Below are positions 28,335-31,066 of a stretch of DNA of 40,855 bases, one piece after another (the first letter of the stretch is position 1; each line of letters opens with the position of its first letter). This DNA is from Fidelibacterota bacterium (GTDB taxonomy: Bacteria; Fidelibacterota; Marinisomatia; SCGC-AAA003-L08; D37C17): NCBI GenBank assembly GCA_002719095.1, contig PBGO01000024.1, forward strand, positions 65,949 to 106,803, read 5' to 3'. The notes under the pieces were generated by a model, which was not told where the DNA came from, did no database searches, and was given only the letters and a program-made list of their open reading frames with translations. A program made the translations under genes and the position numbers.

Positions 28335-28368
28335 TCCCCCCTCCAAATCATTTATAATTTACAAATTA

Positions 28369-28402
28369 ATTAAGAAAACTCCCTTAAAAGAGTTTTCTTA
28401 AT
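28369..28402 (-). terminator. Perfect 13-bp hairpin (attaagaaaactc / gagttttcttaat, 8-nt loop)
   Basis: Arms 28369-28381 and 28390-28402 are exact reverse complements; A/T-rich flank. Confidence 0.65.
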
Positions 28403-28404
28403 CG

Positions 28405-28478
28405 TTTACCATAGCGCAAAAGCCAGTTGAGGAATAAGATGTAGGCAGAGAAATTTAATCTCTAAATCTTATGGTAAA
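28405..28478 (-). ncRNA. Candidate structured RNA or leader upstream of yceI (strand inferred from neighbours)
   Basis: Nested helices: closing stem TTTACCATA/TATGGTAAA (28405-28413 with 28470-28478), aagat/atctt (28436-28440 with 28466-28470), agaga/tctct (28447-28451 with 28459-28463). The two outer helices share base 28470, so one must be a base shorter. Confidence 0.45.
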
Positions 28479-28500
28479 AATATATATGAAAATCTAGAAA

Positions 28501-28536
28501 TTTAAATTGATGTAAATCACAGTAATTCAATTTAAA
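28501..28536. promoter_or_regulatory. 10-bp inverted repeat enclosing an FNR/CRP-family-like box TTGATGTAAATCAC (28507-28520)
   Basis: tttaaattga / tcaatttaaa exact inverted repeat; the core matches TTGAT-N4-ATCAA with one mismatch; AT-rich TATATA about 30 nt downstream on the minus strand. Confidence 0.4.
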
Positions 28537-30992: not shown

Positions 30993-31066
30993 TACACCCG
31001 ATAGGATTCGAACCTATAACCTCTTGTTCCGTAGACAAGTGCTCTATCCAATTGAGCTACGGGTGC
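30993..31066 (-). tRNA. tRNA-Arg (anticodon ACG)
   Basis: Cloverleaf read on the minus strand: acceptor GCACCCG/CGGGTGT, anticodon arm CTTGT-CTACGGA-ACAAG, T arm ATAGG-TTCGAAT-CCTAT; 3' CCA not encoded. Confidence 0.95.

Follow-up and report, generated by a model that had tools for sequence, protein, structure and literature searches.

The stretch of DNA analysed here (the window, 40,855 nt) raises the question of what is encoded in the gap between its tadA and yceI genes, where a reading made from the sequence alone had seen nested helices and a perfect hairpin and had proposed either a small RNA ending at that hairpin or a leader controlling yceI. The named helices are all present, namely the 13-bp hairpin, the 9-bp pairing of TTTACCATA with TATGGTAAA, AAGAT/ATCTT and AGAGA/TCTCT. 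On sequence evidence, the minus-strand interval 28520-28366 is best read as a stand-alone small-RNA gene, not a yceI leader. The span originally marked did capture a structured RNA gene, though it left out the promoter, which extends to 28520.

Along the minus strand, this candidate gene opens with a CRP-type operator, GTGATTTACATCA (GTGA-N6-TCA, 28508..28520), followed by a -10 element, TATATT, at the conserved hexamer positions (28479..28484), and a predicted small RNA of about 105-110 nt (28366..28472), whose +1 would lie near 28472 and whose 3' end would be a terminator-like hairpin. The RNA carries hairpin I (28435..28471), distinguished by a conserved asymmetric loop and by covariation, which comprises an outer helix, TAAGAT/ATCTTA (28466-28471 with 28435-28440), an inner helix, AGAGA/TCTCT (28459-28463 with 28447-28451), and GCCTAC as the 3' strand of the internal loop (28441-28446). 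Just 3' of it, at a position conserved in alignment A8, lies the pyrimidine-rich, anti-SD-like stretch TTCCTC (28429..28434), and the terminator-like hairpin (28369..28402) has 13 perfect base pairs, or 16 with G-U pairs. The minus strand has a fold z of -4.95, with none of 200 shuffles equally good (plus strand, -3.57), and none of 1000 dinucleotide shuffles reaches the 13 bp of the perfect hairpin. The U tract of this hairpin is weak in the window, where a simple scan for terminators failed to flag it; strong U tracts follow its equivalents in G009, G014, G016, G011b and others, and the stem keeps its position among homologs, with unrelated sequence. While AAGAT/ATCTT, AGAGA/TCTCT and the 13-bp hairpin have proved to be real conserved features, the 9-bp pairing (28405-28413 with 28470-28478) that had been taken for the closing stem has not: stems of that length turn up in 5.2% of shuffles, its minus-strand 5' arm falls between the -10 element and about +3, and it is absent from all homologs. 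The supposedly unpaired GC-rich core was likewise only partly correct, in that both the conserved GCCTAC strand and the anti-SD-like stretch lie within it; its likening to an aptamer core finds no support.

The distribution of the element was traced from relatives. Two genomes of the same family yielded a copy in the first DNA search, at another site, beside recA, and this recA-side copy, used as a query, led to a third context in another genus. A covariance model restricted to hairpin I (R1, 42 columns, promoter left out) then found two new homologs, in G004 and G016, with weak scores; both have a GTGA..TCA box 49-50 nt 5' of the hairpin and a terminator-like hairpin 3' of it, and the operator is absent from the weaker R1 matches among those that could be checked. 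Two further models, R2 (promoter plus hairpin I) and R3 (22 members, 122 positions), include the known members, whose scores are high by construction, such that the evidence lies in the newly found ones. With R3, strong matches (E <= 1.5e-5) number 28 and fall in 19 of the 23 genomes of one family of Ca. Neomarinimicrobiota (SAR406), uncultured marine bacteria to which the window also belongs, and there are none of that strength in 148 other genomes of the class. Several of these genomes have two or three sibling copies, up to three each, and one copy was detected in the window's own genome. When 84,980 species genomes were scanned for the pattern, the full architecture was recovered only in records of Ca. 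Neomarinimicrobiota, along with four matches, in Paraglaciecola, Neobacillus, Acetomicrobium and Flammeovirgaceae, that lack the hairpin and were judged to be chance. Also set aside were a weak match in G081, which is coding (pspC-like), and the weak matches L091-L111 except that of G016 (L094), in which no operator was seen and many of which apparently lie within coding sequence, a few of the loci being incompletely checked.

Rfam 15 gave nothing at the gathering threshold in the window beyond an ordinary tRNA gene (30993-31066, minus strand, 69.9 bits), and no match at that threshold at 18 homolog loci, which agrees, as far as these scans reach, with the original view that no known class is represented. 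We likewise found no SAR406/Neomarinimicrobiota small RNA in Rfam or in the open-licence literature searched. The family is thus apparently a previously undescribed one, albeit of a known functional kind, probably the anti-SD small RNAs.

The sequence-only reading had proposed covariation and conservation in relatives as its check, and, alongside the 28 strong homologs, hairpin I covaries. In a MAFFT alignment made blind to structure, pairing in the outer helix stands at 96.2%, with 19 double-change cells as against 6.1 in shuffles; pairing drops to 30-49% in slid controls of this helix, and none of 500 shuffles reaches the covariation score of hairpin I. A seven-sequence alignment agrees, and an alignment fitted to the structure supports both helices, consistent with the structure-blind result. 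The variants illustrate this directly: the outer helix occurs as TAAGAT/ATCTTA, TAAGAA/TTCTTA, TAAGGG/TCCTTA, TAAGTC/GACTTA, TAAGGC/GTCTTA and TAGAGC/GCTCTA, and the inner one as AGAGA/TCTCT, AGAGCC/GGCTCT, TAGCT/AGCTA, AGAGT/ACTCT and GAACA/TGTTC. Most members have a CCUAC-like sequence on the 3' side of the internal loop.

A second conserved element follows hairpin I, taking the form CUCCU, UUCCUC or UCUCCUU, with CUCCU or UCUCCUU in most members and a short version (UUCCUC) in the window. The a-type members of g6, as well as G007, present this stretch at the tip of a second hairpin, in its loop (CCAAAATA..TATTTTGG). It is succeeded by a UUGGCYUUGAUGAAC-like motif and then by a strong terminator-like hairpin. 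Its predicted accessibility ranges from about 0 to 1 among members, being high in many, not all, a spread due in part to automatic picks that fell in the terminator. Two sets of siblings deviate further. The c-type siblings (L180, L186, L187, L214) have an operator of the form TTGAT..ATCA in place of GTGA..TCA and a TAAGGC or TGGGGC stem maintained through G-U pairs; the d-type siblings (L181, L182 and L184, in G017, G012 and G020) lie about 230 nt 5' of a malate-dehydrogenase-like gene and have GUCUC, not CUCCU, after hairpin I.

The genomic settings bear on whether the element acts in cis. Its flanks, named mostly by reading the sequences, include recA (G003, G009, G014, G012, G017, G020), an EamA-like transporter, a saccharopine-dehydrogenase-like gene with a CYTH gene, mdh and others. 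A riboswitch-like leader or attenuator of yceI, with signal-dependent termination or read-through at the hairpins, would accommodate the tadA/yceI gap of the window, G004, G010 and G015, where the element lies just 5' of yceI on the same strand, as well as the weak terminator of the window. We nevertheless regard it as improbable, given that the next gene is yceI in just these 4 of the 28 homologs and another gene in the remaining 24, that we saw no conserved alternative pairing of the terminator with hairpin I, and that the terminator sequences are unrelated among members. Moreover, the downstream gene is convergent in 10 of the 28, and a cis-leader is therefore excluded at those loci. The set as a whole does not show the conserved placement 5' of one class of gene, on the same strand, that a leader would have, and at the window locus itself a cis-leader is unlikely. 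What recurs instead, in many unrelated loci, is a gene that by its sequence stands alone with its own conserved promoter and terminator, as do base-pairing anti-SD small RNAs, and this favours the small RNA ending at the hairpin over the leader or attenuator that had been offered beside it. Some residual read-through into yceI may still occur from such a free-standing gene. The many genomic locations and the inverted repeats could also recall a mobile or repeat element, a MITE- or REP-like palindrome structured by coincidence; this is most improbable, with one copy detected in the window's genome and the siblings within a genome falling into divergent classes, whose stems covary and whose promoter spacing is invariant, instead of being near-identical copies.

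The promoter of this free-standing gene is nearly invariant. The distance from the start of the operator box to the start of the hairpin is a constant 48-50 nt, and, in 22 aligned members, the GTGA and TCA of the operator are invariant, except that the first G is T in two. Within the -10 hexamer, T, A and the last T never vary (22/22). Counting from the -10 element, the base preceding TAAG (column 50 of A8; G in 21 of 22 members, A in the window) would be +1, which places the operator centre at about -41.5, the textbook class II position of CRP. The box occurs just this once in the 40.9-kb window, although about 1.5 would be expected by chance. The pattern of operator, -10 element and TAAG gives 33 matches against five for the reversed control. 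An FNR operator was suspected first and set aside in view of the GTGA half-site, the CRP-type recognition helix of the regulator and the lack of an FNR cysteine cluster. Further operator/-10 matches lie directly 5' of protein genes, at L228 (G021:C10), L244 (G019:C111), L251 (G001:C99) and L229 (G006:C8). This geometry before protein genes suggests that the family may possess a wider CRP regulon with a genome-wide CRP promoter type.

A candidate for the cognate regulator is readily found. In 20 of the 23 family genomes, a PF13545 search singles out one clear protein of the CRP/FNR family; in the window's genome it is encoded at L136:1477-2151 (minus strand). This protein aligns best with Escherichia coli CRP (E 6.9e-30 to a CRP structure), and retains the CRP-type recognition helix SRETVSR and, in that alignment, the E..RS of the cyclic-nucleotide pocket, with D at the equivalent of S128. 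Since its 127 bits on the NCBIfam CRP model fall below the curated cut-off of 266, we call it CRP-like, not a certified CRP. A MeaB/ArgK-like GTPase gene (L136:547-1470, minus strand) adjoins it, and the same neighbour is seen in G001 (L138). Class III adenylate cyclases are present in 22 of the 23 genomes, and we infer cAMP made by them as the probable ligand. A search for Hfq (PF17209) found nothing in any of the 23 family genomes, while it gave matches in 5 of 14 controls.

Taken together, we consider it probable that the gene encodes a CRP-activated, Hfq-independent anti-SD small RNA of about 105 nt. Conservation supports the gene, its promoter and its hairpin: an operator at -41.5, in class II geometry, and a -10 element would drive an RNA composed of hairpin I, a CU-rich anti-SD-like linker and the terminator hairpin. 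Its transcription, the identity of its targets and the sign of its regulation we infer from sequence. The single CRP-like regulator of the genome, with cAMP from the class III cyclases, would activate transcription; the CUCCU/UUCCUC stretch would pair with the Shine-Dalgarno regions of several trans-encoded mRNAs; and this pairing would block their translation without Hfq. The two or three diverged siblings of several genomes would share both the promoter layout and the seed. Target prediction on the window's genes was uninformative, with yceI 14th of 34 and no preference. The same small RNA might act in another mode, namely protein binding, sponging of another small RNA, as CrfA sponges the alphaR8 RNAs, or target activation, through the CCUAC loop or the UUGGCYUUGAUGAAC motif. 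The conservation of the hairpin I loop and the 3' motif besides the anti-SD stretch, the non-uniform predicted accessibility of the latter and the failure to find Hfq in the 23 genomes lend this some weight; yet a CUCCU-type stretch is kept in nearly all siblings, even in G010 and G007, which are devoid of the CCUAC loop, and we consider such a mode a minority prospect. Because a regulator is predicted for this candidate SAR406 small RNA, its promoter geometry is precise and a covariance model is to hand, it is directly testable in existing ocean metatranscriptomes.

Several known small RNAs offer functional parallels. FnrS is an FNR-activated small RNA, and the gene described here resembles it in its predicted control by an activator of the CRP/FNR superfamily; it differs in that the GTGA half-site and the SRETVSR regulator are of CRP type, and there is no Rfam match. 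NmsRA and NmsRB of Neisseria are described as sibling RNAs that repress several mRNAs through a single-stranded anti-SD stretch, rich in U and C, lying between the first and second of their stem-loops (PMC5362039). By description, they share siblings, stem-loops and an anti-SD-like stretch with the present family; the available part of that account does not describe their promoters as CRP-type (PMC5362039). The alphaR8 RNAs of Caulobacter (SisA-D) are siblings that repress many mRNAs and whose C-rich core of 10 nt, UUUCCUCCCU, lies just 3' of a weak hairpin; they are alphaproteobacterial and Hfq-associated (PMC12559287). Our members lack this 10-mer and have CUCCU, UUCCU or UCUCCUU instead. 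A further counterpart is the enterobacterial CyaR (RyeE), a CRP-controlled, Hfq-dependent RNA whose seed binds ompX at its Shine-Dalgarno region and so keeps ribosomes from binding (PMC11795201). Proposed CRP control and blocking of the Shine-Dalgarno region, here read from sequence only, link the two. The CyaR covariance model has no match at gathering in the window or at the 18 homolog loci and is absent among the permissive matches for the window stretch; CyaR belongs to another phylum, we recognise no shared sequence, and its dependence on Hfq contrasts with the family genomes, in which Hfq was not found. We raise the possibility, about as likely as not, that an uncultured marine phylum without recognisable Hfq has a network, driven by cAMP-CRP, of anti-SD small RNAs that are diverged siblings (at most three in a genome), forming a carbon or energy-state regulon that evolved independently of CyaR. 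If true, the family would supply a further, independent case of anti-SD riboregulation linked to CRP, in bacteria where no Hfq is recognisable.
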